IMG/VR virus record: IMGVR_UViG_3300037504_000569
Span: 1 to 20,546 of that record
Length of the DNA stretch: 20,546 nucleotides
Reading direction: 5' to 3' (one strand)
DNA from: a virus
The notes beneath the pieces were generated by a model. The model was not told where the DNA came from, searched no databases, and was given only the letters and a program-made list of their open reading frames with translations. Below are positions 1,831-19,402 of the stretch, piece after piece (the first letter of the stretch is position 1; each line of letters begins with the position of its first letter). The translations under genes and the position numbers were made by a program.

Positions 1831-1866
1831 ATTTAGCTCGCATATGGTTTATTATGCTAGCTAAAT
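1831..1866 (+). other. dif-like palindromic site A
   Basis: ATTTAGCT-CGC-ATAT-GGTTTA-TTAT-GCT-AGCTAAAT has perfect 8-bp outer arms. Architecture equals a Xer dif site: two 11-bp arms, inner ATAA/TTAT and a 6-bp centre. The right arm TTATGCTAGCT matches 8 of 11 bases of the E. coli XerD arm TTATGTTAAAT (from memory). The site overlaps the integrase stop codon and lies ~100 bp upstream of the Cas12-like gene. Being the most symmetrical copy and next to an integrase, it is also a candidate attP core. Confidence 0.6.
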
Positions 1867-3315
1867 CATTTCCTTCTGCTGACCGCCAGGCCCTCCTTTC
1901 TTAGTGCGGCGGTTCTGGGCCGCCCTGAGCAGCTCCAAAGCCGCCTCACGCCCTCCGGGGTCCTCTGGATCCTCCAGGTTTTTGTTGATGTAGACCATCG
2001 TTGTGTTCAACCCTTCGTGTTTGAGGAGCATTTGCAACACCTGGGGGTCTACGTTCCCCTTGCGCTTCATATTTTTGTAGCGCAGTCTGGCGCCCACGTG
2101 CCTCAACCCGTGCCCGTGCATTTTCTCGGCATCCACGCCTGCTCGTCGCCCGTATTTTTTGAGGGTGGCGTTGAACGTGGTGTTCGAGATGGGCGTGGTC
2201 GCCATCTCGACGAGTTCCTCGGGGGTGGCGTCGGGGCAGAGGCGGGCGATGCGTTCGGGGAAGAGCGGAATCCAGACATACTCATCGGGATCGGGTTCGA
2301 TCCCCGCCTCGCGGTCGAGGCGTCCGGCGGCTTCCAGGTAAGCGCAAATGCTCTGATATACCGCCTGATCGAGCACCTCGACGGCTTCCTCCTCGCGTCG
2401 TTTTTTGGCGATGCTATAAACGACGCGATACCCGCCAGCGTTAGGCCCGTCTGGGATGGGGGTGTGCTCGATGTCGCTCCACTGGAGATTGATGAACTCC
2501 GAAAACCTACGGCAGGTCTGTGAGAAGCCGTAGATGAGGGCGAAGTCTCTTTTCCCGGTCAGACACTCGGTGTTGATGGACGCGAGTACGTCCTTGAGCT
2601 CCTCCACCGAGGGATACTTGGCCCGTTTCTTGGGGGGTTTGTGCCGGTCGATTATTTCAGGGTCGAAGGGGTTGACGGCATCGGCGGGCCAAAGGGAAAA
2701 TGTGCGGCCGTCGGGCAGGCGCCGGTTATATTTGGCCCGCACCGAGGCGTAGAGGTTGCGCCCGGCGGCCAACTTGAGGTTGACCGACGAGACTGCCAGA
2801 GGTCCGCGCCTGGTGACTTCGATGCGCTCGACTTCGCCGTTGTCATTTCGGACCACGCGGCGGAGGTAGGGCGTCCCGTCCCCGTCCTCCCAGCGCATCC
2901 AGTCGGGCGCGTGCCGGGCGTTGAACTCGTCGCGTTCCCAGGGTGCCCGTCCGCCGGTGTCCGGGTCACGCTCGATGCCTTTACCCTCGCTGCGGAGCCA
3001 GGCGGCGAACTCCGTCGTCATTGCGCTGTTGACGTCGCCGGGGTAGACGGCGTGCCCCGAAAACCACTCGGCCCATTCGAAAAATGTCTCGATGGCAATG
3101 CGATAGGCGCTGGCGGTATGCTCTGATTGGTCCTTTTTCTGCTGCAGCCAGGATTCGATGGCCTGGCTCCAGAGCACCCACTTGACCGAGCGCGCGTCGT
3201 CGCCATAGACCTCATCAGAGATGGTGACGTCGCCGCCGAAGAGATCGGACAAATTGGCTGGGAGTTGCTGGGTGTCCGTCTGCGGTTGAGCTTGGACGAT
3301 TTGTGTCTGGGGCAT
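1861..3315 (-). CDS. int: Tyrosine recombinase / phage integrase
   Basis: 484-aa site-specific recombinase, expected to integrate and excise the element. The catalytic set is visible: Arg near residue 270 in CRRFSEFINL, a Lys candidate in SIAKKRRE, H402-x-x-R405-H406 in HGLRH, H433 in LLKHEG and nucleophile Y442 in MVYIN. An N-terminal SAM-like arm-binding region precedes (WSQAIESWLQQKK, SAYRIAIETFFEW). At 484 aa it is longer than XerC/D (~300 aa), with an insert before the catalytic domain. The chosen ATG has AAGGAG six bases upstream; a TTG 24 nt upstream is also in frame but has no such site. The stop codon lies inside dif-like site A. Its own core site cannot be proven here. Confidence 0.92.
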   Translation of the reverse strand: MPQTQIVQAQPQTDTQQLPANLSDLFGGDVTISDEVYGDDARSVKWVLWSQAIESWLQQKKDQSEHTASAYRIAIETFFEWAEWFSGHAVYPGDVNSAMTTEFAAWLRSEGKGIERDPDTGGRAPWERDEFNARHAPDWMRWEDGDGTPYLRRVVRNDNGEVERIEVTRRGPLAVSSVNLKLAAGRNLYASVRAKYNRRLPDGRTFSLWPADAVNPFDPEIIDRHKPPKKRAKYPSVEELKDVLASINTECLTGKRDFALIYGFSQTCRRFSEFINLQWSDIEHTPIPDGPNAGGYRVVYSIAKKRREEEAVEVLDQAVYQSICAYLEAAGRLDREAGIEPDPDEYVWIPLFPERIARLCPDATPEELVEMATTPISNTTFNATLKKYGRRAGVDAEKMHGHGLRHVGARLRYKNMKRKGNVDPQVLQMLLKHEGLNTTMVYINKNLEDPEDPGGREAALELLRAAQNRRTKKGGPGGQQKEMI

Positions 3316-3334
3316 CGCTTTCTCCTTGATCTTT

Positions 3335-3470
3335 AACAACAGGGGCGGCCTGGATTTTCACCAGGCGGGGGCCTTCAGCTCCTCGGCGGCAGCCCCAGCG
3401 CGGCCTTGTGGTGCCGGGATTACGCGCCCCGTTGCCGCTGGTCAGACGGCGGGGCCGCGCCCCTGCTGTT
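3335..3470 (-). other. Long inverted-repeat element in the integrase leader
   Basis: Arms AACAACAGGGGC-GGCC (3335-3350) and GGCCGCGCCCCTGCTGTT (3453-3470) are inverted copies with one mismatch and a 2-nt insertion, enclosing ~100 nt. Inside are GCCTGG-N7-CCAGGC (3348-3366) and a GCCCCG...CGGGGC pair near 3426-3454. On the integrase-coding strand the closing stem ends about 7 nt before the ribosome-binding site. It may be a structured mRNA leader or a DNA site for integrase or excisionase. No ORF is likely here. Confidence 0.4.
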
Positions 3471-3479
3471 GGTTTGTAA

Positions 3480-4064
3480 TTAGCGGCTATTACGGGATTC
3501 CAACCGGAAATTTTGGAGGTCTGAGGTTTGTTCTGCTGTCCATCTAAACTGACCGTCCTGGTGGACGGCCCAGGCAACACGAGGGTAGAAGCCTATCAAG
3601 CCGTGGATGGCTGTTATCACGTGCGTTGCCAGGAGTGACATTCCGGGCAATGCCAGATAGGCGCCTTCTTCTATGTAGGGGGCAGCGCGGTGAGCGATTT
3701 TTAATCCCCACGCTTGCACTTCTTCCGGGTTGGTGACATCAATGTTGGGAATGGTGTGTTCGTCTACTACAGTTACACCAGCCTGGGTAATGGAATGCCC
3801 GCTGGCGTTGAAAATGCGAAAATCGTTTTTGGTTTTGGATTGGAGCGCTAGTAGCGCTTCCTCTAGCGCCGAGGGATCAGGCCAGCGTTCGTTGCCCAGC
3901 AATTGTAGGGCCTTGGAGATGCCGGCGCGGGTGGCGTGCTCAGCGGCTTGGGTGGCCCAGCTCCAGGCCTTCGATTTGCTTTGCTTCCGCCTGGTTACTG
4001 TGATAGCCGCTAGAGCTTTTTCGATTTCTCCAGTTGCGTTCTCGTAATCTACGAGGTGTCCCAT
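3480..4064 (-). CDS. Protein with a Csx15-like C-terminal domain
   Basis: 194-aa soluble protein. The first ~75 residues are helical and unrecognised. The rest starts FRIFNASGHSIT, passes through VVDEHTIPNID and ends LPGMSLLATHVITAIHGLIGFYPRVAW. This order (N-x-SGH start, central helix, then a Gly-Pro-rich strand with LHG-x-x-G-x-FP) recalls the small CRISPR accessory protein Csx15, part of a group linked to cyclic-oligoadenylate signalling in type III systems. The resemblance is from memory and not proven. If right, a phage-borne copy could bind or destroy the host's signal molecule and so act as an anti-CRISPR. Good AAGGAGGG site before the ATG. Confidence 0.45.
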   Translation of the reverse strand: MGHLVDYENATGEIEKALAAITVTRRKQSKSKAWSWATQAAEHATRAGISKALQLLGNERWPDPSALEEALLALQSKTKNDFRIFNASGHSITQAGVTVVDEHTIPNIDVTNPEEVQAWGLKIAHRAAPYIEEGAYLALPGMSLLATHVITAIHGLIGFYPRVAWAVHQDGQFRWTAEQTSDLQNFRLESRNSR

Positions 4065-4154
4065 TTTTATTACCCTCCTTTTGATGGTTGATGGCCGGGG
4101 AGCTATCGGTGGGCCGGCCGTGAGTTTGTACTGGGTGTGTGTAGTGTGTGCTCC

Positions 4155-4267
4155 GCCTCGCGAGAGGCCCCAGGTGAATCAACACCTATCAGATGGGGCG
4201 TGTGTGATCAGCTGCCCCCACGGAAGCTCGACGAACGGGGCGGGGCGCCCGTCGAGCTCCTGTGGGG
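4155..4267. ncRNA. Hairpin-dense intercistronic region (possible structured RNA)
   Basis: The 215-nt gap 4065-4279 has no plausible gene but at least three perfect or near-perfect hairpins: GCCTC-GCGA-GAGGC (4155-4168, GNRA tetraloop on the plus strand), AGGTG-AATCAA-CACCT (4172-4187), and a long stem of ~17 bp pairing 4215-4233 with 4250-4267 with small bulges. GGGGC (4195-4199) could alternatively pair with GCCCC (4214-4218). No U-tract follows on either strand, so these are not ordinary intrinsic terminators. It could be a leader of the Csx15-like gene or a free RNA. Strand is unknown. Confidence 0.4.
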
Positions 4268-4279
4268 AAGGCCGAGCGT

Positions 4280-4588
4280 TTAGCTGGCCTCCAGGATGTC
4301 TTGGATGCGCTGGCGTTGACGGGCGGCATCGGTGGTTGCCAGGAGTTCTATCTCCAGGCAGCGCGGACAATCCGCATACCCGTCGATGTCGCGACCGCAG
4401 GTGGGGCAGGGTTTTACGGGTTCCCGTTGTTGCTCCATCTCGGCGACCAATGGACATTGATCGTCATCGCCTGCCAGGCACAAGCGTCGATTCTCGAACC
4501 CGTACTGGCTACCATCCGGATCGTCAAATGGCCTGGCTGGTACTGGGGTTAGTTTGTAGTGCTCGCATCCTTCGCATAAGCTATCCAT
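4280..4588 (-). CDS. Small Cys-rich (zinc-ribbon-like) protein
   Basis: 102 aa. It carries CEGC near the N-terminus (residues 5-8) and CPTCGRDIDGYADCPRC around residues 61-77, typical of one or two treble-clef or zinc-ribbon sites. Function is unknown; such small proteins are common in phage early regions and may bind nucleic acid or host proteins. The ATG overlaps the upstream gene's stop as TAATG, so translation is probably coupled. A longer in-frame reading upstream is a shadow of the next gene and was not used. Confidence 0.65.
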   Translation of the reverse strand: MDSLCEGCEHYKLTPVPARPFDDPDGSQYGFENRRLCLAGDDDQCPLVAEMEQQREPVKPCPTCGRDIDGYADCPRCLEIELLATTDAARQRQRIQDILEAS

Positions 4589-4851
4589 TACGACACCTCG
4601 ATGTACTCGCGACCCTGGAGGCCGCCGTAGCCGGTCACACGGACCTTGTACCCGGCCCGGTCTTCGCCGAGCACGCGGGCGCCATATTCCGCCACGAGTG
4701 CAACGCGGCACTCGTCGCAGACGGGGTACTGATGACGTCCCTGGTGATCGTAGAATTCGACCAGGGTGCGCCCCAGGCGCCCACAGCGAGAGCCGTTGCG
4801 GTAGTTGAGGCACTCGGCGCGTCCGTCCTTGGTGGTGTGTGATGGTCTCAT
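4588..4851 (-). CDS. Small zinc-binding-like protein
   Basis: 87 aa, unrecognised. Cysteine pairs in ECLNYRNGSRCGR and VCDECR suggest one bound zinc. The chosen ATG has GGAGG six bases upstream; an ATG two codons earlier abuts that site and is less likely. It overlaps the ribbon-helix-helix gene upstream only marginally and is probably cotranscribed from the promoter at 5141-5169. Confidence 0.6.
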   Translation of the reverse strand: MRPSHTTKDGRAECLNYRNGSRCGRLGRTLVEFYDHQGRHQYPVCDECRVALVAEYGARVLGEDRAGYKVRVTGYGGLQGREYIEVS

Positions 4852-4853
4852 TG

Positions 4854-5093
4854 TCATCCTCCGTTACGGACGAGATGCTCGACGGCCTCGTCCAAATTAT
4901 CTAGACCTTCATCTTTCGCAACCTGGGTGAGTGCGGCTATAGAGAGATCCGATAGGGCGAAGGAGCGATCCAGATACTCACGGAGTATCTCTGATCTTCC
5001 TACCCTGGTTTCCTTCTTCAATTGTCGCTGTGCTGCTATCCTGAGCAGCTTCTTGTCTTGATCCTCTCTTATAGTTACTGTTCTGGCGATCAT
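4854..5093 (-). CDS. Ribbon-helix-helix (CopG/Arc-type) regulator
   Basis: 79 aa. The N-terminus has a beta strand (IARTVTIREDQDKKLLRIA) followed by two helices ending in RVGRSEILREYLDRSF, the usual layout of RHH DNA-binding proteins, here with an inserted KKET turn. The C-terminal 30 residues form another helix (LDNLDEAVEHLV). The chosen ATG lies just after GGGGGGA; an ATG seven codons earlier lacks such a site. It is the first gene of a leftward unit from a consensus promoter and is divergent from the Xre repressor, so the two likely form the immunity/early switch. Confidence 0.7.
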   Translation of the reverse strand: MIARTVTIREDQDKKLLRIAAQRQLKKETRVGRSEILREYLDRSFALSDLSIAALTQVAKDEGLDNLDEAVEHLVRNGG

Positions 5094-5140
5094 TATTCCC
5101 CCCTGTAAATTCATTAAGCAATTCCTTTAATGCACTTATA

Positions 5141-5169
5141 ATAATATCATACATCGTTAAGTTTGTCAA
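5141..5169 (-). promoter_or_regulatory. Leftward promoter of the RHH operon
   Basis: On the minus strand a consensus -35 TTGACA (5164-5169) and -10 TATTAT (5141-5146) are separated by exactly 17 bp. The surrounding ~100 bp are strongly AT-rich, unlike the flanking genes. It overlaps the region that the divergent repressor would be expected to bind. Confidence 0.8.
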
Positions 5170-5203
5170 GGGGTATTTTGAACACATTTAACAATTTTAA
5201 GGT

Positions 5204-5209
5204 TATAAT
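5204..5209 (+). promoter_or_regulatory. -10 box of the repressor promoter
   Basis: TATAAT lies 11 bp before the repressor ATG at 5221. A weak -35 candidate is TTGAAC at 5178-5183, but the 20-bp spacing is long. Transcription would start near 5216-5217, leaving about four bases of leader and no Shine-Dalgarno site, so the mRNA may be leaderless, as for lambda cI from PRM. Confidence 0.55.
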
Positions 5210-5220
5210 GGGCATTAGAT

Positions 5221-5760
5221 ATGGTTAATGAATCGTTTAGCGAGTGGATAATAGACGAGGTTCAAAAGCGGGATTGGAGTTACTCTGAGCTAGCCAGGCA
5301 AGCGGGGATGTCTTCCGCTCAGGTTAGTATGGTTGTAAATGGTCGGAGTAATCCGGGTGAGAAATTTTGTCGTGGGGTAGCACACGCCTTTCGGGTTTCA
5401 CCTGATATAGTTTTTCGAAAAGCTGGCTTACTTCCTGATGTACCTGCTAGAGAGGAGACGGAGCAGAATCTCCTTTATAAGATCAGGCAGCTGGACCCCG
5501 AGGGTCGCGAGCGCGTGGCTGAGTTTTTGGAGTACCTGGATTATCAGAGGCGCTCTGATCGGGGAACTGCGCCCACGCTTGGAGATCTTGCGGAAGCCGA
5601 TGCCTACAATTTCCTTCGGAATGGCGGTAAGACGTTGGAACTCCAACGGTTGCTGGGGCATACGTCGTTGGCGATGGTCAAACGATATGTGGCTATTGCG
5701 GAGGTGGATCTGGAGAGGGCACACCGAAGGGCGTCACCGGTGAGCAACTGGGATTTGTGA
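5221..5760 (+). CDS. Xre-type repressor fused to a tyrosine-recombinase tail
   Basis: 179 aa. Residues ~20-60 are a Cro/CI-type helix-turn-helix (YSELARQAGMSSAQVSMVVN). Residues ~129-179 are unmistakably the C-terminal end of a XerD-like integrase: FLRNGGKTLELQRLLGHTSL with H147, then MVKRY with the would-be nucleophile Y156, then AHRRASPV. The recombinase Arg, Lys and HxxR residues are absent, so it cannot recombine alone. It is probably a DNA-binding repressor whose tail was captured from an integrase and may serve in multimerisation. Position between divergent promoters supports an immunity repressor. Possibly translated from a leaderless mRNA. Confidence 0.8.
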   Translation: MVNESFSEWIIDEVQKRDWSYSELARQAGMSSAQVSMVVNGRSNPGEKFCRGVAHAFRVSPDIVFRKAGLLPDVPAREETEQNLLYKIRQLDPEGRERVAEFLEYLDYQRRSDRGTAPTLGDLAEADAYNFLRNGGKTLELQRLLGHTSLAMVKRYVAIAEVDLERAHRRASPVSNWDL

Positions 5761-5780
5761 GGACGTGGATGAAGTGTTAA

Positions 5781-5813
5781 GCCCCCGACCATCGAAGTGG
5801 TCGGGGGCTTTTT
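5781..5813 (+). terminator. Intrinsic terminator after the repressor
   Basis: A perfect 10-bp stem GCCCCCGACC/GGTCGGGGGC with an 8-nt loop is followed by TTTTT. It ends the repressor transcript and also faces the end of the leftward early operon. Confidence 0.93.
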
Positions 5814-5821
5814 AGTATTAG

Positions 5822-5836
5822 GTGGGCGAGCGGGGT
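5822..5836 (-). repeat. Partial copy of the hairpin-start cassette
   Basis: GTGGGCGAGCGGGGTG is only the 5' arm (minus strand) of the repeated hairpin seen upstream of the operon genes. It lies past the stop of the last gene and before the terminator, as if a cassette had lost its second arm and gene. Confidence 0.55.
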
Positions 5837-5844
5837 GATGGGTG

Positions 5845-6108
5845 CTACTTAGAATGCCATTTCCACGTGGTCAAATCGAACCTGGCCACGACGTGGGGTT
5901 CTGGGTCACTGCGTAGCTGTACACATAAATCGAATGTGATCCAGTCCTCCAGATCGATATCGGATGAATTGGTAGCATTTTGCATATCCTCCATAATCGC
6001 GGTTTGAATAGGTGGCGTTGCGCACCACCCGTCGCCTCCGCCAGTGGCGAGGGTATACACGTGCTGGTTTTCGTCGAATTCTGGATAGTCTGGGATTCGC
6101 TTAGTCAT
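5845..6108 (-). CDS. Hypothetical early protein
   Basis: 87 aa, unrecognised. Sequence is acidic in the middle (DIDLEDWITFDL) and ends in a Trp/Lys-rich tail (TTWKWHSK). No cysteine pairs or membrane segment. The ATG follows GAGGAGAAGATAAAA and, 21 nt upstream, a hairpin cassette (6130-6158). It is the last gene of the leftward early operon. Confidence 0.65.
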   Translation of the reverse strand: MTKRIPDYPEFDENQHVYTLATGGGDGWCATPPIQTAIMEDMQNATNSSDIDLEDWITFDLCVQLRSDPEPHVVARFDLTTWKWHSK

Positions 6109-6129
6109 TTTTATCTTCTCCTCGGACTT

Positions 6130-6158
6130 GCTCCGCCCGCTTGTTGGGCGAGCGGGGC
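6130..6158 (-). repeat. Hairpin-start cassette 1
   Basis: Minus-strand RNA stem with heptaloop CCAACAA, 21 nt before the 6108 ATG. One base differs from the consensus, giving an A-C mismatch in the outer stem on the minus strand. Confidence 0.85.
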
Positions 6159-6167
6159 TTCTACCTC

Positions 6168-6515
6168 TTAAAATCTGTATCCGCCGCGCTGATCCTCTAG
6201 CGCCTTTTTCATAGCATCATTATCTGTAACTGAGTATAGCGCAGCACAGAATTCATTTAGCTCGTTTGGCTCATCATATCGCCAATCCAGGTCGAGCAAA
6301 TCCATTGCTGCTCGGTAGTCCTGATTGCTTATTTCAATCGTATTTGGCTCTTCTTCGCAGGCTTCCCAGGCTCTCAGGCGATGGGAGCCGGTGAACGCAT
6401 ATTCGCCCGCGACAACTACGGGCGGTAATTCGCCACCCGATTCAAGATGCTTGATCATCTTTTGTAGTTTTTCCTGATCCATTGTTTCGTGAGGGGGAAA
6501 GTAGCCCAATGCCAT
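6168..6515 (-). CDS. ParB-like nuclease-fold protein
   Basis: 115 aa. ELPPVVVAGEYAFTGSHRLRAWEA is a compact ParB/Srx-type core: a strand pair followed by the G-x-HR-x-x-AW nucleotide-binding loop. No helix-turn-helix follows, so it is not a partitioning ParB. Related small domains occur in phages as CTP/ATP-binding or DNA-modification accessory proteins. The C-terminal half (LDLDWRYDEPNELNEFCAAL) is unrecognised. The ATG follows AAAGGAGATAAAA and a hairpin cassette. Confidence 0.7.
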   Translation of the reverse strand: MALGYFPPHETMDQEKLQKMIKHLESGGELPPVVVAGEYAFTGSHRLRAWEACEEEPNTIEISNQDYRAAMDLLDLDWRYDEPNELNEFCAALYSVTDNDAMKKALEDQRGGYRF

Positions 6516-6528
6516 TTTTATCTCCTTT

Positions 6529-6557
6529 GCCCCACCCGCTTGTTGGGCGAGCGGGGC
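6529..6557 (-). repeat. Hairpin-start cassette 2
   Basis: Same 29-nt hairpin, 13 nt before the 6515 ATG. The one substitution turns a G-C pair into G-U in the minus-strand RNA, so the stem is kept. Confidence 0.88.
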
Positions 6558-6610
6558 CTTGCCTTAAATAGGCGGGGCTTTTTGCTTAGATAAACTCGAT
6601 TGTGTGAGCT

Positions 6611-6634
6611 GCCCCGCCCGGTTAAGAGCGGGGC
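6611..6634 (-). repeat. Divergent hairpin between operon genes
   Basis: A shorter relative of the cassette: a 7-bp stem GCCCCGC/GCGGGGC with a different loop. It lies just after the stop of the 6652 gene and is not followed by a start codon. Between it and cassette 2 (6558-6610) I see no gene. Confidence 0.6.
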
Positions 6635-6651
6635 CTGTTGTTCATACTCGC

Positions 6652-6954
6652 TCAGGCATTATTGATATTCTGCGATCTCTTAATTGTGCGGCTTTTTCGT
6701 AGCTGACGAAAGGTGGCCGATAAAGCCTTTCCCTTAGGTGTGAGATGGGCAACCATCCCACACTTCAGGCAAGTACCTTCCCAAGTGCGGTCATCGTAAG
6801 TCACACAGGGCTTGAACCTGTGTCCATCCTCTCGCACTCTGGTCTGAGAGAGGGTGTTTGGATCTACCCCCTTTGTGCTTCCGCCGTGTACCTCGCACTC
6901 AGTGACAGACCGCCACTTAATCTGTGCGAGGAGCTGTGTAAGTGTCATCTCCAT
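6652..6954 (-). CDS. Small basic zinc-binding-like protein
   Basis: 100 aa, unrecognised. TCLKCGMVAH near residue 62 supplies one CxxC; C20-E-V-H and C50 could complete a site. The C-terminus is strongly basic (TFRQLRKSRTIKRSQ), as in nucleic-acid-binding proteins. The first of two close ATGs is used because GGAG lies five bases before it. Confidence 0.6.
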   Translation of the reverse strand: MEMTLTQLLAQIKWRSVTECEVHGGSTKGVDPNTLSQTRVREDGHRFKPCVTYDDRTWEGTCLKCGMVAHLTPKGKALSATFRQLRKSRTIKRSQNINNA

Positions 6955-6965
6955 TTTTCTCCTTT

Positions 6966-6995
6966 GCCCCGCCCGCTTGTTGGGCGAGCGGGGGC
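6966..6995 (-). repeat. Hairpin-start cassette 3
   Basis: Consensus hairpin with one extra outer G (30 nt), 11 nt before the 6954 ATG. Confidence 0.88.
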
Positions 6996-7000
6996 TTTGA

Positions 7001-7210
7001 TTATTTCAATGCCTCAAATAATGGTCGGGCTGGTGACATTACGTGCGGTTTCTTTTCTTCAATGTCCTCGCTTGCCCGATACCCACGCATTTCTACAAGT
7101 GTCTCATCATTCTCGGGACGCTCGTAGAATTCTGCGTACAGATTGTAAGTTGTATTGTGGTGCTCGCCTCCCGTGTAGTTTTTCAGATATACCCTGCCTA
7201 CCAAGTTCAT
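7001..7210 (-). CDS. Hypothetical early protein
   Basis: 69 aa, unrecognised. A short beta-rich N-terminus (MNLVGRVYLKNY, NLYAEFYE) precedes a charged tail. The ATG follows GGAGAAAAACG, 14 nt after a hairpin cassette. A reading that starts upstream runs through the hairpin and was not used. Confidence 0.6.
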   Translation of the reverse strand: MNLVGRVYLKNYTGGEHHNTTYNLYAEFYERPENDETLVEMRGYRASEDIEEKKPHVMSPARPLFEALK

Positions 7211-7224
7211 CGTTTTTCTCCTTT

Positions 7225-7253
7225 GCCCCGCCCGCTTGTTGGGCGAGCGAGGC
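7225..7253 (-). repeat. Hairpin-start cassette 4
   Basis: Consensus hairpin with one base change that gives a U-G wobble pair in the minus-strand RNA. It is 14 nt before the 7210 ATG. Confidence 0.88.
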
Positions 7254-7260
7254 GATAAAA

Positions 7261-7452
7261 TTATGTTCCGGGATCTACCCATTCGATTCGACAGCGAGGG
7301 CAGATAACCGGCTCAAACCTTGGCCCGTAGGGCTCGCCGACGTCGAGCTGCTCTGTCGGCTGCCCGCATTCGGGACAAATTTCGGGTGGCCCATCTGCTG
7401 CATTATCGCCCCACCATTCCCGGTGGTCCCATTTTTCGGTCGGTTTCTCCAT
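7261..7452 (-). CDS. Small zinc-ribbon protein
   Basis: 63 aa. CPECGQ near residue 28 and CPRCRIEW near residue 53 form a classic CxxC-x(~20)-CxxC zinc ribbon. The N-terminus is Trp-rich (KWDHREWWG). The partner is unknown. The ATG follows AAAGGAGAAGGTG, 13 nt after a hairpin cassette. Confidence 0.68.
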   Translation of the reverse strand: MEKPTEKWDHREWWGDNAADGPPEICPECGQPTEQLDVGEPYGPRFEPVICPRCRIEWVDPGT

Positions 7453-7465
7453 CACCTTCTCCTTT

Positions 7466-7494
7466 ACCCCGCCCGCTTGTTGGGCGAGCGGGGC
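7466..7494 (-). repeat. Hairpin-start cassette 5
   Basis: Consensus hairpin with the closing pair changed to G-U in the minus-strand RNA. It is 13 nt before the 7452 ATG. Confidence 0.87.
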
Positions 7495-7500
7495 CATACG

Positions 7501-7707
7501 CTAAATTATTATTGGCTCGTCCGTATCCCATCCGCGGGCGCGCTGGGCTGATTTTTCTCGCGGGGATCGGAACCGATTGAATCGTCCGCCGCCTCGGTGT
7601 CGCTGTGAGAGCTGCTGGAGGCAATTCTCGCAGAGGATCATTCCACCCGATTCGACCGGGATACCGCGGGCCAATCGGCCGCATTCGATGCAGATACCCT
7701 CATTCAT
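7501..7707 (-). CDS. Small zinc-binding-like protein
   Basis: 68 aa. CIECGRL (residues 5-8) and CENC (near 28-31) look like one zinc knuckle, followed by an Arg-rich stretch (RHRGGGRFNRFRSPRE) suited to nucleic-acid binding. The ATG overlaps the end of the upstream gene (ATGAATGA), so translation is coupled, and it is the one gene in this part of the operon without its own hairpin. Confidence 0.62.
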   Translation of the reverse strand: MNEGICIECGRLARGIPVESGGMILCENCLQQLSQRHRGGGRFNRFRSPREKSAQRARGWDTDEPIII

Positions 7708-8128
7708 AGCCAAGCTCTTCCTTCAGGCGCCGGACGATTCCCTCTTGCTCCTCCCGGCTCCGGACGTCGTCCGGGTTGTGCTCAATGGGAAAATCTCCCC
7801 AATCGAGCATACCCTGGTTGTAGCCGAGCATCCGGAGCTGGTGCTCTCGCTGCTCGCGAATCTTGTCGAGCTCGCGGAGGTAGGCCCATTTGCGGGTCTG
7901 GTCGTCCTCGATCTCCCCGGCGCTGATGGCGCCTGAGAGATACCGGAGGATCTCTGCGCTCGGCTCTGGCTGCTCGATGAGCTCGGCGGCCTTGCGGAGC
8001 GCGAAATCAATCGCCTCCAGCCTGCCGCTGTGCTCATTGGGATCGAGGGCCAGATGCTCGCAAATTTTTTCTAGGAGCGGGCCTCGCTCCTGTGATAATC
8101 GGACGTTGGTGTATTCGTTTCTAGGCAT
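7700..8128 (-). CDS. Hypothetical early protein, possible RHH N-terminus
   Basis: 142 aa, mostly helical and highly charged. The first ~50 residues (YTNVRLSQERGPLLEKICEHL and RLEAIDFALRKAAEL) have the strand-helix-helix spacing of RHH proteins, but the match is weak. The C-terminal half (RELDKIREQREHQLRML, REEQEGIVRRLKEE) could form coiled coil. An upstream start at 8215 would bypass the hairpin and overlap the 8175 gene; the ATG with AAAGGGAAA is preferred. Confidence 0.62.
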   Translation of the reverse strand: MPRNEYTNVRLSQERGPLLEKICEHLALDPNEHSGRLEAIDFALRKAAELIEQPEPSAEILRYLSGAISAGEIEDDQTRKWAYLRELDKIREQREHQLRMLGYNQGMLDWGDFPIEHNPDDVRSREEQEGIVRRLKEELGYE

Positions 8129-9205: not shown

Positions 9206-9241
9206 AGGCAGCGCACATAACGCCAATTATTCCAACTGGCT
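9206..9241 (-). other. dif-like palindromic site E
   Basis: Arms AGCG-CAC-ATAA and TTAT-TCC-AACT around a 6-bp centre CGCCAA. It lies between the leftward early promoter and the rightward promoter at 9262, at the border of the early and late regions. The outer arms are more degenerate than at site A. Confidence 0.5.
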
Positions 9242-9261: not shown

Positions 9262-9289
9262 TTGACAATCTGGGGGATTTGTGTATAAT
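9262..9289 (+). promoter_or_regulatory. Rightward consensus promoter
   Basis: TTGACA (9262-9267) and TATAAT (9284-9289) with 16-bp spacing, both perfect. AGGAGGT at 9296-9302 and an ATG at 9307 follow. It drives the small 9307 gene and possibly the late genes past the terminator at 9608. Confidence 0.88.
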
Positions 9290-9652: not shown

Positions 9653-9680
9653 CGCGTTTATGGATAACCGGAGGTTACAG

Positions 9681-10187
9681 ATGAAGATCAAGGCGGCTGG
9701 TGTTTTAGTTGTGCTAAGCGTGATTATGCTCGCTGTTTTCGTGGGTTGCGAAGGTGGCCCGCAACCCACGGCCTCGCCGGTGGATCAGGATACCGCGGCG
9801 ATGGTCACCGAGGATGATGGCGGGCCGGGCGTGGACGTGCCCGCTATGCCGGCCATTGAGGATGTATTGAACGCGGTGGCAGGCTTTTTCGTCGATGCGA
9901 GGTTTCACGTGATCGCGTTGATGATTTTCGTTGATTTGGGCCTGGGCCTCTCGGCTGCGATTCGCAGTGGGGAGTTCGACTGGGCGCGGGTCGGTGATTT
10001 TTATCGCAGCAACGTGGTGCCCTACGTCCTCAGCTATCTGGTGTTGTACATCGCCTTCGATGTGATGCCGGGTCTGGGGGATTTCGTTGACCAGGCACTG
10101 AAATCAATTTCCTTCGCGGCGATTGTCGCCAGCCTGGGAGGCAGCATCAAGAAGAACCTTGACAAATTGGCTCTACAGGCCGGGTAA
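9681..10187 (+). CDS. Holin-like membrane protein with lipoprotein signal
   Basis: 168 aa. The start has a lipoprotein-type signal (hydrophobic core, then VFVGC with C23 as the lipid-attachment cysteine), then a Pro/Asp-rich linker to ~55. Two or three membrane helices follow at ~76-96, 111-131 and 140-155 with DLGLGLSAAIRSGEFDW between, recalling phage_holin_4-type holins. Position just before the coiled-coil and amidase genes fits a lysis role. GGAGG lies six bases before the ATG; an ATG seven codons upstream was not used. A lipobox on a holin is unusual; the signal may instead act as a signal-anchor. Confidence 0.6.
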   Translation: MKIKAAGVLVVLSVIMLAVFVGCEGGPQPTASPVDQDTAAMVTEDDGGPGVDVPAMPAIEDVLNAVAGFFVDARFHVIALMIFVDLGLGLSAAIRSGEFDWARVGDFYRSNVVPYVLSYLVLYIAFDVMPGLGDFVDQALKSISFAAIVASLGGSIKKNLDKLALQAG

Positions 10188-13049: not shown

Positions 13050-13085
13050 ATTTAGCTGGGATAAGTTTCGTTATGCTAGCTAATT
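13050..13085 (+). other. dif-like palindromic site B
   Basis: ATTTAGCT-GGG-ATAA-GTTTCG-TTAT-GCT-AGCTAATT. The right half is identical to site A through AGCTAA. It lies 20 bp past the 12592 gene, at the border to the terminase module. Confidence 0.65.
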
Positions 13086-13155: not shown

Positions 13156-13189
13156 ACAGATGGCGTATAGCGTGGTGTGGTGAGGATGG

Positions 13190-13729
13190 ATGGTAGCTTT
13201 CTTGCCGGATTGGATGACATACGAGATCGAGCAGGCGCTGCGCGGGCTGACGCGCAAACAGCGTACGACGGTGCTCAAGCTAGCCGAGGCTGCGGCCACG
13301 CCAGGGCGGTCGATGTCGGATGTGTTCCGGGAACCGGATTGCTGCAATCGTTCCACGTGGTACGACCGGCCTTCGCGGGATGGGTGGGAGAGCGACCCGC
13401 AAATTCAGCACGCTCTCGCGTTGGCCACCGAGCGAGCACAGCACTGGCAGGATACGACTATCGCCCGGCACATCGCGGAGGCGCAACGGAAGCTGGCTGT
13501 GGCCGCGCCCCCGGCGGTGGATCGGATTATCTCCTTGATGGCTGGTGCCGAGGATCAGCGGGTGCAACTGCGAGCGGCCGAGGGCATCCTCGACAGGACA
13601 GCTCAGGAAACAGCCAGCAAGCAAGCGGTCTCTGTTAGTGGGGAGCTACCTACGGTGAGCGATGAGGAGTTGAACGCTATTGAGCAGGCGCTCAGAGACC
13701 AAGCTGCAGGCGGCGGCGAGGCAGAATAG
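13190..13729 (+). CDS. Probable terminase small subunit
   Basis: 179 aa. N-terminal helical DNA-binding-like region (RKQRTTVLKLAEAAAT, CCNRSTWYDRP) and C-terminal oligomerisation-like helices (VQLRAAEGILDRTAQETASKQ). No strict family match, but phage small terminases have this shape and it precedes and overlaps the large subunit by 50 nt. It would recognise the packaging site and feed DNA to the large subunit. An ATG at 13217 is an alternative start. Confidence 0.68.
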   Translation: MVAFLPDWMTYEIEQALRGLTRKQRTTVLKLAEAAATPGRSMSDVFREPDCCNRSTWYDRPSRDGWESDPQIQHALALATERAQHWQDTTIARHIAEAQRKLAVAAPPAVDRIISLMAGAEDQRVQLRAAEGILDRTAQETASKQAVSVSGELPTVSDEELNAIEQALRDQAAGGGEAE

Positions 13730-15200
13730 TGCGATCTTTGCGCGGGTCTGGCGTGGTGGCATTCTCCCTGGCGATCATCAGTATGATATGGCCGCCCGCA
13801 TCGACGACCGTGCCCTGCGTTTCCAGGCTGATTTTTGGCCGCGAGATCACGGCAAGAGCGAGATTTTCTGCATAGCGTATCCACTGCGATGGATATGCGA
13901 GGACCCTAACATTCGAATACTGATTGTGCAGAAAACGGCCACGGAGGCCGAGAAAACGCTCTCTGTGATCAAGCAGGAGCTAGAGCGCAATCGTCGCCTG
14001 AAAAATTTCTATGCGCCACACTGGGAGCGCATGGTGGGCCACAGGGACATTTCCAACGCGACGGGCGTGATTGATCGCGACGGCGAGCGTGAAGGCGCCT
14101 GGCAGCAACGCAAAATCTATGTGAAGCGCACACGACGCGGGAAGGACCCCACGGTTGAGGCGGTAGGTGTGGGGGGGGCGATTACGGGCGGGCATTTCGA
14201 CGTAATTATCCTGGATGACGTGGAGGAAGATGAGAACACACGCACTGCCGGCCGATTGCGCACATTAAGGCAGTGGTTCAATGGCACCATTATGCAGCTC
14301 CGCGAGCCCGACACGAAAATGGTCGTGGTCGGGACGCTAAAGACAAATGGTCGGGACATTTACAATTCGTTGCTCAATAATCCAGTCTGGTCCTGCGAGG
14401 TACAGTCGTCAATTCTGAGCCACGATCTCGATGACATCGAATACGAGGCTGTCTACAACGACGACGGGCAATTGGTGGATGTAGAGGTGCTGACTGAGGA
14501 CGTTGAGGTGCTGTGGCCTGAGAAGTGGCCTATCGAGGCACTGATCTTCGATATGTTGGCCTCGGGCGAGCGCTCAATATGGATACGCGAGAAGCTCAAC
14601 GACCTGCGGGCAATTGCGGGCCGAGTTTTCAAGCGAGAGTGGTTTCGTTATTTTGAAGCGGTCCCTCCCGCACTGGATGATGTCATCCAGATTTGGGACA
14701 CGGCCTGGGAGGAGACCGAGAGCTCGGATTGGTCGGTGGGGCTGACGTTGGGGCTCCTGGAGGGCACAGTTTATGTGCTCGACGTGATGCGGGCACGGCT
14801 AGAAACACCAGATTTGTTGAGTGCTATGAAATCTCTTTATGAGCGATGGCGCCCACGCGAGATATTGATCGAGGACAAATCAAGCGGGAAAAGCGCTCGA
14901 CAGATGTTGCAAAGAGAGACTGGGCTGCCCGTGGTAGCGGTCAATCCCGGTGGGCGAGACAAGGTAGCAAGGGCAAGAGCAATCACGCCCTACTACGAAA
15001 GCGGGCGCGTTTTGCATCGCGTTGATACGCCGTGGTTGGATACGTTCGAGGATGAGTTGGTGCTGTTTCCGGAGGCCGAACACGACGATCAGGTAGACAC
15101 GCTTTTTTACGGCGTCTCACGGCTATTGATCGGATCGGACTCGGCCAAGGAATTTTTGGATTGGATGAAGGGGCAATCGAGTGGTGAAAATGAGCAATAA
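13680..15200 (+). CDS. terL: Terminase large subunit
   Basis: 506 aa packaging motor with ATPase and nuclease domains. Walker A-like RDHGKS (55-60), Walker B DVIILDDVEE (174-183). The RNase H-like nuclease has D340 (IWDTAWEE), E398 (LIEDKSSGKS) and D470/D473 (EHDDQVD). The start is uncertain: a TTG, 50 nt inside the small-subunit gene, is the only reading covering the N-terminus; the next in-frame ATG is at residue 37, before Walker A. The stop codon abuts dif-like site C. Confidence 0.92.
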   Translation: MSRRSETKLQAAARQNSAIFARVWRGGILPGDHQYDMAARIDDRALRFQADFWPRDHGKSEIFCIAYPLRWICEDPNIRILIVQKTATEAEKTLSVIKQELERNRRLKNFYAPHWERMVGHRDISNATGVIDRDGEREGAWQQRKIYVKRTRRGKDPTVEAVGVGGAITGGHFDVIILDDVEEDENTRTAGRLRTLRQWFNGTIMQLREPDTKMVVVGTLKTNGRDIYNSLLNNPVWSCEVQSSILSHDLDDIEYEAVYNDDGQLVDVEVLTEDVEVLWPEKWPIEALIFDMLASGERSIWIREKLNDLRAIAGRVFKREWFRYFEAVPPALDDVIQIWDTAWEETESSDWSVGLTLGLLEGTVYVLDVMRARLETPDLLSAMKSLYERWRPREILIEDKSSGKSARQMLQRETGLPVVAVNPGGRDKVARARAITPYYESGRVLHRVDTPWLDTFEDELVLFPEAEHDDQVDTLFYGVSRLLIGSDSAKEFLDWMKGQSSGENEQ

Positions 15201-15235
15201 TTTAGCTCACATAATCGGCCTTATCCCAGCAGAGG
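15200..15235 (-). other. dif-like palindromic site C
   Basis: ATTTAGCT-CAC-ATAA-TCGGCC-TTAT-CCC-AGC. Left arm equals site A except for one inner and one outer-triplet base. It begins at the last base of the terminase stop and ends just before the methyltransferase start. Confidence 0.65.
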
Positions 15236-15241
15236 TCTAGC

Positions 15242-16549
15242 GTGGATGAATTGCGATTAGAGTATAGATCACCGAAGGAGTTGGCAGACAACCCCGAAAA
15301 CTGGCGTCGCCACCCGGCGGGCCAGGCGGAGGGGTTGGACGCGGTGCTTGATGAGGTTGGATGGGCCGGGGCCGCGCTGTATAACGAGGCCACGGGGCGC
15401 CTGATCGACGGTCACCTGCGCAAAAAACGGGCCATCGAGCGCGGGGAGCGGGTACCGGTATTGGTGGGTTCCTGGACGGAGGAGCAGGAGCGATTGATCC
15501 TGAGCACGCTCGATCCGCTGGCGGCGATGGCCGAGGTAGCCGGGCAATCGCTCAAAGATTTGATTGACGTGGTTGAGCCGGATGCGCCTGAAGGCACGGA
15601 GGAGATATTCGAGCGATTGAAAGCCGAGGCTGAAGAGGCGCTGGCGGCGATGGTTGCCGAGGATGCGCCCGACGATCCCGGCGCTCAGGTGGACAAGGCC
15701 GAGGAGCTACGGGAGAAGTGGGGCGTCGAGGCGGGCCAGCTTTGGCAGTTGGGCGAGCACCGGCTGATTTGCGGAGACTGCACCGATGAGGCTGTGGTGG
15801 AGCGGGTGATGGATGGGGAGAAAGCGCAGTTGTCTCATCACGACCCGCCGTATGGTGCTGATGTGGTCAAGGTGAAGGGGAGGTCTAATCGTGGGTCAAT
15901 AGGGGGGAGGAATTGGGGGCCAGTTGGAGAATATGAGCCTGTAGTTGGCGACGATGAACCATTTGACCCTGCTCACCTGATGGATACGGGTGATGTGGTT
16001 GTGCTTTGGGGAGCGAACTATTATGCGGATAAGTTGGCGCCCTCCTCCTGTTGGTTGGTTTGGGATAAGCGTGATGGGATGGCAAGTAACAATTTTGCTG
16101 ATTGCGAATTGGCTTGGGTTAGCAGTCCCTCTCCAGCGCGTATTTTTGCCCACCGTTGGATGGGGATGATGAAGGCTTCAGAGCATGGTGAAAAAAGAAT
16201 GCACCCGACGCAGAAACCCGTTGCGTTATTTGAGTGGGTTGTGAGCCTGTTCACTGATGAGGCCGGTGTTGTATCTGACTGGTATTGTGGTGCTGGCGGG
16301 CAAGTGCTTGCCTGCGAACGCCTGAACCGCCGTTGCCGAGCTGTTGAGATCGCGCCGAAGTACGTCGCCGTCACGCTGGAGAGGTGGGCCGATATGACCG
16401 ACGAGGAGCCGGTGTTGGTGGAATCACAGACGCCGGTCGCGGCGGATGCACCAGATCAGCACAGCAACGCCAGCCGCGGCACCGAGGGCGGCGTCGAGGT
16501 GACCGAGGATGAGGCAGAAGGCAATCATCAGGATGCCGGCAATGATTAG
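15242..16549 (+). CDS. ParB-like domain fused to DNA methyltransferase
   Basis: 435 aa. Residues ~1-110 are a ParB-like domain with RLIDGHLRKKRAIE. Residues ~160-385 are an adenine-N6/cytosine-N4 methyltransferase: DPPYG catalytic motif (201-205), HPTQKP (321-326) and the SAM-binding part DWYCGAGGQVLACERLNRRCRAVEI (346-370, split here). The order places it in the beta class. Such fusions occur in phages next to terminase genes and protect phage DNA from restriction. The SAM motif has CGAGG where FxGxG is usual. Base use is lower in GC from about 15880 to 16300 than in the flanks. Start is a GTG after AGAGG. Confidence 0.85.
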   Translation: MDELRLEYRSPKELADNPENWRRHPAGQAEGLDAVLDEVGWAGAALYNEATGRLIDGHLRKKRAIERGERVPVLVGSWTEEQERLILSTLDPLAAMAEVAGQSLKDLIDVVEPDAPEGTEEIFERLKAEAEEALAAMVAEDAPDDPGAQVDKAEELREKWGVEAGQLWQLGEHRLICGDCTDEAVVERVMDGEKAQLSHHDPPYGADVVKVKGRSNRGSIGGRNWGPVGEYEPVVGDDEPFDPAHLMDTGDVVVLWGANYYADKLAPSSCWLVWDKRDGMASNNFADCELAWVSSPSPARIFAHRWMGMMKASEHGEKRMHPTQKPVALFEWVVSLFTDEAGVVSDWYCGAGGQVLACERLNRRCRAVEIAPKYVAVTLERWADMTDEEPVLVESQTPVAADAPDQHSNASRGTEGGVEVTEDEAEGNHQDAGND

Positions 16550-16579
16550 ATCGCGCATAGGGACATTATACCACATCAA

Positions 16580-16615
16580 GCGCAGCTTACATAATGCCTA
16601 TTATCCCAAGAGGAG
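16580..16615 (-). other. dif-like palindromic site D
   Basis: AGCT-TAC-ATAA-TGCCTA-TTAT-CCC-AAGA. The site reaches the AGGAG ribosome-binding site of the portal gene, so a bound protein here would affect the portal transcript. Confidence 0.6.
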
Positions 16616-16618
16616 CGT

Positions 16619-18637
16619 ATGAGGTTTTTTGATCGCGTCCGGCGGGCCTTCCGCGAATTCGCGGGGCCACCGGCGATGCCGAAGCCGCGCAAGAAGGAAA
16701 AAGAGCGCACGCTACTATCGAAGCCGCGGTCGGGGCGGCCCGATGCGACGCTCCTGCGCTCTGTGGCGGAGCAGGTGGCCGTCGTTCGGGCGGCGATCAA
16801 TGCCAAGAAACGCCACGTCACGGCGTTGCAATACCAGGTCGAAGGCCCGGATGATACCACAGCTCGTATGCTAGAGGATTTGCTGGCGGAGCCGATGCCG
16901 GGCTACTCCTGGCGCCAATGGATTTCCGAGGTGCTGGAGGACGTGCTGGTGCTAGATGCGGCCTGCATTTATCCGTGGCCCACGCGCGGCGGCGATCTCT
17001 ACGGTCTGATGCCGGTCGACGCGGCCACCATCGCCAAAATCCCTAACGATCAGGGTATCCTGCCAGAACCGCCAGAGACTGCCTACGAGCAGCAGATCGA
17101 CGGCGTGACCGTGGCGAGCCTGACGACGGAGGAGCTGATCTACGAATCAATGAATCCACGCCCTCAATCGCTCTACGGCCTGAGCCCGACCGAGGTGGTG
17201 TTGCACACGGCCTTGACGATGTTGCGGCGGATGACCTACGCGGCGGATGAGATTGACAGCTCGAATGTCCCGGCCTTCTTTGGCGAGGTGCCCTCGGGGT
17301 GGACCACGGCGCAAATCTCAGAATGGCAGGATTACTGGGATGCGATGGTCGAAAACAAGCCCCATCGGGGCGTGTGGGGGCCGGCCGAGATGAACGCGAC
17401 GTTTCCTCCACAACGCCAGATAGATATTGATTTTGACACCTACCTGGTGCGCCTGGTGTGCGCGGTGTTCGAGGTGCAGCCGCAGGAGCTCGGTTTCACG
17501 ATGGACGTCAACCGGGCGACGGGCGATAGCCAGGAGGTGATCACGCAGCGGCGCAGCGTACGACCGCTGGCGGGTTTGATTGTTGAGGCGGTCGATCAGG
17601 TTTTCGGGCTCTACGATTATGGCGATTATGGCCTGGTGTTCCCCGGCCTCCAGGAGCGGGCGCGGGCGGAGATTCGCGAGGATGCACGCACGTTGGTGCC
17701 GATTGGCGTGCTGACGCCGAATGATGTGCGAGGTGATTTGGGCCTGGAGCCGCTGCCGGGCGGTGACACGCCACAACGACCGGGGCTAGGTGGGATGGGC
17801 CTTTCGCAATCGCGTCGGTCTGAGCTGGCGGGCAAAATCCTGCGGGCCGAGGATGAGGTAGTGATCGACCCGCTGGGGCCAGATGACAACAATGTGCTGC
17901 TCGCCATCGAGGACGAGGCGGTCAAGGCCGTGATTGAATCCGGCGCGGACGTCGACCTGCGGGCGTTGCTGAAACCGATTGACGAGCGATTGATGGCCGG
18001 CGAGGAGATCGATGACGACCTGATCGATGAGCTGGCTGATGAGATAGGCGCGGCGCACGGCAATGAGCTGGCGCGTCTGACGCCCAATTTGGTCGAGATG
18101 GCGCAGTCGGGCGTGGATGCCGCGGCCGCGGCCTTCGCTGAGGCGATGAACATCACGCTGGATTGGAGCCTGGCGAACGCGGACGCGGCGACCTGGGCGC
18201 GGGAATATGGCTATGAGCTAATCCAAGGCCTGAGCGAGACGACGGCCAAGCGCGTGGGGGCCGAGCTCGGGACGTGGGTCGAGGCGCGGGAGGATTTCCC
18301 GGCGCTGGTGGACCGCCTGGCGGCCATTTTGCAGGATGAGGCACGGGCGGAACTGATCGCCTCCACCGAGGGCACGCGGGTCTACGCTGAGGGCAACCTG
18401 GTTTCCTGGCGGCAGGCGCGGGATGAGCTGGGCCTGACGTTTGTCAAGGTCTGGCGCACCGCGCGGGATGATCTGGTTTGCCCACTTTGTGGGCCAATGG
18501 ACGGGCAGCGAGCGCAGCTGGACGCTCAGACGTGGCACCACGCTAGCAATGCGGATAAGAGCGTGGGGATGACAGTCTCGGCGCCGCCGATGCATCCGCG
18601 CTGTCGGTGCTGGCTGGTCACGGCGGTGCAAGTATGA
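16619..18637 (+). CDS. Portal protein fused to MuF/SPP1-gp7-like minor head protein
   Basis: 672 aa. Residues ~1-390 are a phage portal (SWRQWISEVLEDVLVLDAACIY, YGLSPTEVVLHTAL, VNRATGDSQEV), the ring at the capsid vertex through which DNA is packaged. Residues ~480-672 match the head-morphogenesis family Mu gpF/SPP1 gp7: FVKVWRTARDDLVCPLCGPMDG with CxxC (621/624), then PPMHPRCRCW (H659, C662, C664). In most phages these are separate adjacent genes. The join (~390-480) is an acidic linker. Next gene starts inside its last codons. Confidence 0.85.
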   Translation: MRFFDRVRRAFREFAGPPAMPKPRKKEKERTLLSKPRSGRPDATLLRSVAEQVAVVRAAINAKKRHVTALQYQVEGPDDTTARMLEDLLAEPMPGYSWRQWISEVLEDVLVLDAACIYPWPTRGGDLYGLMPVDAATIAKIPNDQGILPEPPETAYEQQIDGVTVASLTTEELIYESMNPRPQSLYGLSPTEVVLHTALTMLRRMTYAADEIDSSNVPAFFGEVPSGWTTAQISEWQDYWDAMVENKPHRGVWGPAEMNATFPPQRQIDIDFDTYLVRLVCAVFEVQPQELGFTMDVNRATGDSQEVITQRRSVRPLAGLIVEAVDQVFGLYDYGDYGLVFPGLQERARAEIREDARTLVPIGVLTPNDVRGDLGLEPLPGGDTPQRPGLGGMGLSQSRRSELAGKILRAEDEVVIDPLGPDDNNVLLAIEDEAVKAVIESGADVDLRALLKPIDERLMAGEEIDDDLIDELADEIGAAHGNELARLTPNLVEMAQSGVDAAAAAFAEAMNITLDWSLANADAATWAREYGYELIQGLSETTAKRVGAELGTWVEAREDFPALVDRLAAILQDEARAELIASTEGTRVYAEGNLVSWRQARDELGLTFVKVWRTARDDLVCPLCGPMDGQRAQLDAQTWHHASNADKSVGMTVSAPPMHPRCRCWLVTAVQV

Positions 18638-19029
18638 GTGATATGGTGGTCGTTGAGGTGCGCGGGCTGGACGAGGCCCAGCGGCGGTTGGATGCCAACC
18701 TCGACCGGGTGCTACGCCGGGGCACACGGCGAGCAATTGAGCACGTGCGGGCTGTCCTGGCGACTTATCCGCCAAAACCGCCGGGCAGCACATACGACCG
18801 CACCGGATCGCTGGGGCGGGCCTGGGCGGTGGAGGTGCGCGGGCTGGCGGGCAATATCGTAGGCATCGCGGGTAACACAATGCCCTACGCGCCAAAAGTG
18901 CAGGATTTGCAAGAACAACGGGATGTCCACCGCGGGCGCTGGCCGACGGTGCAAGGTGTGGTTCAGAAAGAGGCTGGGTCGATTACAAATATCTATCAGG
19001 ATGAGCTAGATCAGGAACTGGAGAATTGA
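18634..19029 (+). CDS. HK97 gp10-like head-tail protein
   Basis: 131 aa. VVEVRGLDEAQRRLDANLDRVLRRGTRRAIEHVRAVLATYPPKPPGSTYDRTGSLGRAW is typical of HK97 gp10/tail-completion-type proteins: N-terminal helix, then a conserved TYxRTGxLxRAW element. Start overlaps the previous stop (ATGA). It probably acts at the head-tail connector. Confidence 0.7.
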   Translation: MSDMVVVEVRGLDEAQRRLDANLDRVLRRGTRRAIEHVRAVLATYPPKPPGSTYDRTGSLGRAWAVEVRGLAGNIVGIAGNTMPYAPKVQDLQEQRDVHRGRWPTVQGVVQKEAGSITNIYQDELDQELEN

Positions 19030-19030
19030 G

Positions 19031-19372
19031 ATGGCAAGAGCGAGCCTGACGGCACAGGAGACCGGCTCTTCGGGGCAAGCGGTGACAATGACCAACACCG
19101 CCTCGGCGGATGGTATATCGTTTGCAAACACGGGTCGCGAGATGGTGCTGCTGGAAAATGATACCGAAGGGGCCGTCACTGTGACGGTGCAGACGCCAGC
19201 TGAGATAGACGGTGATCTGGCAATCGCCGAGCGCACGTTGAGCGTGGCTAGTGGTGCCATCGCCACCATCGGGCCATTTAGCAAGCAATACTACAACCAA
19301 TCCGATGGGGCTGTCTATGTGGATTTTGACGAGGATGGAGTGGGCGCCGCGGTCATTCGTTGGCCGCATTAG
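19031..19372 (+). CDS. Small beta-rich virion-type protein
   Basis: 113 aa. Ser/Thr/Gly-rich, alternating strands (REMVLLENDTEGAVTVTVQTP, TLSVASGAIATIGPF, YYNQSDGAVYVDF). The pattern with GPFSKQYYNQSDG is shared by small phage proteins annotated as head or decoration proteins, so that role is likely. It begins one base after the previous stop and its own stop lies in dif-like site F. Confidence 0.62.
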   Translation: MARASLTAQETGSSGQAVTMTNTASADGISFANTGREMVLLENDTEGAVTVTVQTPAEIDGDLAIAERTLSVASGAIATIGPFSKQYYNQSDGAVYVDFDEDGVGAAVIRWPH

Positions 19373-19402
19373 TTGGGACAAAGGGAATTATATTAGCTAT
19401 GA
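19367..19402 (+). other. dif-like palindromic site F
   Basis: CATTAGTT-GGG-ACAA-AGGGAA-TTAT-ATT-AGCTATGA. Inner ATAA is ACAA here, so this is the weakest left arm. It lies between the virion-type protein and the protease genes. Confidence 0.5.

Follow-up and report, generated by a model that had tools for sequence, protein, structure and literature searches.

Dispersed 28-bp Sites With Xer-Type Geometry and Phage-Specific Arms Between the Gene Blocks of Tailed Phages

Introduction

Phage genomes are mosaic, and the origin of the borders of their modules, a long-standing question, is usually put down to rare illegitimate or short-homology recombination together with selection. Near-palindromic sequences that recur at the gene junctions of a single phage genome raise the question of whether they mark places of site-specific gene exchange or serve another purpose, such as the binding of a regulator. 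The window studied here is the whole stretch of 20,546 bases (IMG/VR record IMGVR_UViG_3300037504_000569, positions 1 to 20,546) and was assigned to a tailed phage. Leftward early genes come first, followed by a rightward block encoding an amidase, the small and large terminase subunits, a ParB-like/N6-N4 methyltransferase, a portal-MuF fusion, and more head genes.

Relatives were found by TerL, portal, and capsid searches of IMG/VR together with a motif scan. G003 is 90–94% identical over most of the shared part, and it extends the genome by about 10 kb rightward; G004 is mostly 81–93% identical (the reverse complements of these two records are referred to as g3rc and g4rc). L005, L006/L129, and L132 are more distant, with terL proteins of L005 and L006 that are 74% and 69% identical, respectively.

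Results and Discussion

A Near-Palindromic Site With a Strict Gap

A first-pass annotation of the window had reported six dif/Xer-like palindromes, and a near-palindrome is present at all six places, with either an ATAA-N6-TTAT core or one mismatch to it. The consensus given at that time, TTAGCT-N3-ATAA-N6-TTAT-N3-AGCTAA, described real sites but was too strict. It is exact at one of the six (13052) and recurs with one to three mismatches at 1833, 15202, and 19369 (chance expectation, 0.00), i.e., within three mismatches at four of six; at 9206 and 16580 the resemblance is mostly limited to the core and to portions of the arms. What actually recurs is a site of 28 bp, WGNNNNNATAA-N6-TTATNNNNNCW, with an 11-6-11 layout (Table 1). 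Allowing at most one mismatch, this model has eight matches in the window and none there when the gap is set to 4, 5, 7, or 8. It adds two matches to the six reported, one intergenic and one within an ORF, the latter probably due to chance.

The proposed Xer geometry of 11-6-11 was borne out by a control in which exact ATAA-N-TTAT was counted, sequence by sequence, at every gap length between 0 and 20: the gap of 6 is strict, with almost no matches at other gaps. Exact ATAA-N6-TTAT occurs four times in the window, three times in G003 beyond the window, four times in G004, twice each in L005 and L006, and three times in L129 (a total of 18, or 17 without one L129 site that duplicates an L006 site), whereas any other single gap gives at most one match per sequence. 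The mean count of the gap-6 core in 300 dinucleotide shuffles of the window was 0.07. A chance origin of the sites is ruled out by the gap control and the shuffles.

Placement in gene junctions holds for seven sites, two of which reach a few bases into a stop codon. The further claim that the sites lie in both orientations is suggestive only: exactly one GGG/GGA inner half is found in seven of the nine sites of the window phage type (combinatorial p = 0.145, computed from half-sites). No two spacers are alike among the sites of one genome.

Table 1. Sites of the 28-bp type in the window and genes discussed in relation to them.
Feature	Position	Strand	Remark
Tyrosine recombinase (phage integrase) gene	1861..3339	-	Candidate recombinase for the sites
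XRE-type repressor with the final ~50 residues of an Xer-like integrase as its tail	5221..5760	+	Candidate binder if the sites are operators
ParB-like/N6-N4 DNA methyltransferase gene	15242..16549	+	Cassette between s1 and s2; missing in G004
28-bp site AGCTCGCATAT-GGTTTA-TTATGCTAGCT	1835..1862		Overlaps integrase stop codon (gene 1861-3339, -); precedes Cas12f/TnpB-like gene
28-bp site TGCTTAGATAA-ACTCGA-TTGTGTGAGCT	6583..6610		New; between two leftward genes
28-bp site AGCGCACATAA-CGCCAA-TTATTCCAACT	9210..9237		24 bp upstream of perfect -35/-10 promoter 9262-9289
28-bp site AGCTGGGATAA-GTTTCG-TTATGCTAGCT	13054..13081		Upstream of small-terminase gene
28-bp site s1 AGCTCACATAA-TCGGCC-TTATCCCAGCA	15204..15231	+	Between terL stop (15200) and methyltransferase start (15242)
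28-bp site s2 AGCTTACATAA-TGCCTA-TTATCCCAAGA	16584..16611	+	Between methyltransferase stop (16549) and portal start (16619)
28-bp site AGTTGGGACAA-AGGGAA-TTATATTAGCT	19371..19398		Between 113-aa gene and protease gene; G004 junction different
Site-like match	9707..9734		Inside ORF 9660-10187

Phage-Specific Arms and a Possible Co-evolving Partner

The site type is present in all of the relatives (G003, G004, L005, L006/L129, and L132). G003 repeats the four right-hand sites of the window and has three more (g3rc 9580, 12075, and 15375). In G004, four cores are exact; there is also a site with one mismatch at g4rc 256-283 and, at the place homologous to g3rc 12075, a degenerate one (14216). The core of L132 reads ATAA-N6-TTAG. 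Exact matches to the narrow motif were found in 50 stretches of IMG/VR, nearly all of them AT-rich and with single sites, and distant prophages with portal relatives contained no such cores except for one stray match.

Each half-site is built from [A/T]G, a phage-specific pair at -5/-4, NNN, and ATAA. The window and G003 have CT as this pair, G004 has CG, L006/L129 have GG, L005 has GC or GT, and L132 has mainly GC. Half-site similarity is 0.56 within phages vs. 0.42 between them (p = 5e-5, 20,000 label permutations). As the outer dinucleotide is phage-specific, a partner protein appears to co-evolve with the site. Within one phage, arms taken from different sites are more alike (0.56) than the two arms of a single site (0.49). 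This favors half-sites bound by a protein over RNA stems; RNA hairpins were rejected as an explanation, arm complementarity not being what is conserved. The spacer TGCCTA is common to the window, G003, and G004. We rejected the idea that spacers serve as “addresses” kept between relatives, which is true for TGCCTA and fails at other homologous junctions, most spacers not being kept at homologous junctions of diverged relatives.

Changes of Gene Content Around the Sites

The first-pass annotation had proposed looking in related phages for modules gained or lost between sites, and such a case is seen at the methyltransferase gene. This gene is flanked in the window and G003 by s1 and s2, which have the same orientation, and is absent from G004, where terL is followed by a single site and then by the portal gene. 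The single G004 site, TAATTTAGCGCACATAATGCCTATTATCCCCAGAGGAGCG, is a hybrid in which TAATTTAGCGCACATAAT is joined to GCCTATTATCCCCAGAGGAGCG: its left arm is that of s1, and its center and right arm are those of s2. Since L005, L006, and L132 also lack a methyltransferase gene after terL, gain at the site is the simpler polarity. If the gene was indeed gained, its point of insertion would be the inner arm/center boundary of the site.

The reported position of the sites at module borders is supported too, and the cargo behind the terL site is variable. A site comes directly after terL in all five lineages, and different genes stand behind it: the methyltransferase gene, a further site, and the portal gene in the window and G003; the portal gene in G004; a protease-capsid gene in L005 and L006, which has a long N-terminal extension in the former but not in the latter; and a 148-aa gene followed by protease-capsid in L132. 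Between G003 and G004, homology stops or resumes at the sites g3rc 2299/3740, 6527, and 15375. Two of the three homology breaks in the colinear part of these genomes fall exactly at sites and the third lies in a gene about 100 bp off; enrichment of breakpoints at sites was not significant by count alone. The methyltransferase is the only clear cassette event.

Weighing against cassette exchange at the sites, two swaps between the window and G003, one of terL (13582-15186) and one of the methyltransferase core (15855-16310), are not bounded by sites on both sides. The former replaces the large-terminase gene by another terL subfamily between flanks that are ~90% identical. The latter exchanges the catalytic part of the methyltransferase (DWYCGAGG in the window, DPFVGSGT in G003) and leaves both gene ends conserved.

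That these large swaps end inside genes, and that s1 and s2 have the short word GCTNACATAAT in common at the crossover, would be in line with short conserved boundary sequences that have no recombinase of their own, play another role, and merely offer short homology to general or illegitimate recombination. The hybrid site could come from illegitimate recombination between the GCTNACATAAT copies. We consider this explanation unlikely: why the gap is strict, why the site has two arms, and why these arms are phage-specific are all left unaccounted for, as is the primary role of the sequences.

Proposed Sites for a Tyrosine Recombinase

The sites exist, lie between genes, differ from phage to phage, and have the build of a tyrosine-recombinase site, and one clear cassette gain or loss is linked to them. 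The reading we favor, to which we give an even chance, is that they are the sites of a tyrosine recombinase (Xer-type and probably phage-encoded) and are used as cassette borders. On this reading, the 28 bp would form a recognition site with two inverted 11-bp arms around a 6-bp exchange region, to which a tyrosine recombinase of the Xer type would bind. Because different phages have different arms, the enzyme would be encoded by the phage and would not be the host XerC/XerD. Sites at gene-block borders would act as docking points for cassettes entering or leaving the genome, the methyltransferase being the best case. Since the spacers differ, exchange would take place mainly at one arm/center boundary, as in the XerC-only reactions of integrating phages; in phages that integrate by Xer, exchange at one such boundary is possible when part of the center differs (PMC5357621). 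Differing spacers hinder complete Xer recombination, and this is a point against the recombinase reading.

Sites adjoin two different integrase genes, one in the window and one in G004. The window integrase, whose stop codon is overlapped by a site, is Xer-like only in its C-terminal half. The G004 integrase is a different gene and shows Xer similarity along its entire length (E 2e-42 to 2e-39 against the NCBIfam profiles XerA, XerC, and XerD, short of their curated cut-offs); the one-mismatch site g4rc 256-283 lies just upstream. The last ~50 residues of the G004-type integrase survive in the window as the tail of the XRE-type repressor gene.

Taken further, and tentatively, as this may well prove wrong, the genome of these temperate tailed phages, probably of Chloroflexota, would be split into cassettes by phage-specific Xer-type sites and a phage-encoded recombinase, such that modules including the virion operon are gained and lost site-specifically and not only homologously. 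If true, the question of border origin would become testable in a phage whose module borders contain recombination sites of its own. The apparent gain or loss of the methyltransferase cassette exactly at a site may help to explain gene swapping among these viruses.

Promoters and a Possible Operator Role

The sites could also be dispersed operators, at which a phage-encoded dimeric DNA-binding protein (a repressor or late regulator) blocks or modulates transcription from intergenic palindromes, like the stoperators of phage L5; gene blocks would then differ beside the sites merely since intergenic gaps accept new phage genes. Sites are intergenic and in many cases lie ahead of gene starts, the window encodes an XRE repressor, and variable spacers would need no explanation. 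A site also lies upstream of a strong promoter in two phages: the window has a perfect TTGACA-16-TATAAT at 9262-9289, 24 bp downstream of its site, and L006 is arranged similarly, its site being followed after some 54 bp by TTGACA-17-TATAGT. However, the window site lies upstream of this -35 element and not over it, and no site occurs in the promoter region (5115-5220) that serves the XRE repressor and its divergent leftward neighbor. A fixed 28-bp two-arm site with 11-bp arms is, moreover, long for an HTH_3 repressor, and the hybrid site of G004 is not predicted by operators. Concerted, phage-specific motif change is known for the stoperators of Cluster A mycobacteriophages, although these are asymmetric and mostly one-way (PMC6550527). 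We regard an operator role as possible but doubtful, yet it stays the main rival, and a serious one, because stoperators and the ESAS of Cluster K mycobacteriophages show phage- or subcluster-specific motifs. Operators of this kind would be a new, long, two-arm, and concertedly evolving family inside a late operon, an outcome still of use but less surprising. A role of the sites as promoters themselves was rejected: near-TATAAT hexamers occur inside sites without -35 elements, which are absent at most sites, and some sites read backwards.

Probable Host and Comparison With Known Systems

Of 396 Anaerolineae genomes, 21 encode portal relatives (26–57% identity), and the genome search with the G004 integrase gave its best hit, at 29%, in an Anaerolineales MAG; a Chloroflexota host is therefore likely, judging from these protein matches. 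Host searches by terL and by integrases returned no close relative. The site type is at background level in the 396 Anaerolineae genomes (11 matches vs. 12 with a reversed control pattern), and site-like matches in these chromosomes lie in cellular genes where looked at. A chromosomal dif search, for a host that is only inferred, gave no recurrent dif with such arms. The background-level counts, the result of the dif search, and the difference in arms between related phages all weigh against dif-like sites copied from the host and used by host XerC/XerD, as in pdif modules or Xer-integrating phages. Such sites would share the geometry, and many of ours contain the inner CATAA/TTATG words as in dif, but we hold this origin to be very improbable.

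The resemblance to the pdif modules of Acinetobacter plasmids, raised in the first-pass annotation, extends to the layout and not to membership. Like the pdif sites of Rep_3/OrfX plasmids, the phage sites are 28 bp long, consist of two 11-bp arms and a 6-bp spacer, and lie between movable gene modules. Dif modules lie between inverse sites, with C and D modules alternating except for fused CD modules, and their rearrangements involve nearly identical spacers at the recombining sites (PMC13141974). In contrast, s1 and s2 share one orientation, their spacers are TCGGCC and TGCCTA, and all other spacers differ as well. The phage sites further depart from pdif in lying among tailed-phage genes, including the virion operon, and in having phage-specific arms; among the chromosomes searched, no match to a host dif was found. 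Because the spacers all differ and s1 and s2 are direct, we do not classify the sites as pdif; by their geometry, they are Xer-type sites whose partner is probably encoded by the phage.

Among other Xer-based systems, the integrating phages CTXphi, VGJphi, and TLCphi likewise have a dif-like site at which exchange is possible at one arm/center boundary, but their attachment sites number one or two and serve integration, instead of recurring between structural genes. In the single-recombinase XerS/difSL system, the recombinase gene adjoins its site, as a candidate Xer-like gene may do in the phages, but this system serves chromosome dimer resolution, with one site per chromosome and an 11-bp central region in difSL. 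As for regulatory repeats, Cluster A stoperators are likewise numerous across the genome, with a motif that co-evolves with the phage. They are 13-bp sequences, asymmetric and mostly in one orientation, whereas the sites described here are near-palindromic, with two arms and a fixed gap. The ESAS are inverted repeats ahead of genes, with a consensus that differs by subcluster (PMC3203893). They too are imperfect, lie upstream of gene starts, and have an unproven function, but their 17-bp arms enclose a variable spacer of mostly 4–13 bp, where ours is always 6, and they are found at non-structural genes and are tied to the 13-bp SAS (PMC3203893).

Other Features of the Window and G004

Several further elements were observed in these genomes. 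A reverse transcriptase, a bAvd-like protein, and an adjoining possible target gene in G004 (L125:5098-8227) likely constitute a diversity-generating retroelement. On the minus strand of the window, an identical hairpin, GCCCCGCTCGCCCAACAAGCGGGCGGGGC, lies ahead of at least six leftward genes between 6120 and 8370, mostly followed by AAAGGAG and a start codon; it matched no Rfam family. At the contig edge, two perfect copies of a 37-nt CRISPR-like repeat (19-55 and 91-127, 72 bp apart, with a 35-nt spacer) are found beside a Cas12f/TnpB-like gene (260-1726, minus strand; NCBIfam Cas12f2, E 2e-20, under the cut-off), and these could possibly represent a phage-borne mini type V CRISPR system. 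A minus-strand gene at 3480-4064, close to both the integrase and the Cas12-like gene, has a weak Csx15 match (PADLOC, E 6.5e-6) limited to its C-terminal third. A perfect GC-rich inverted repeat of 14 bp with a T-run (5779-5810) stands directly behind the repressor-fusion gene and is predicted to be a strong intrinsic terminator.
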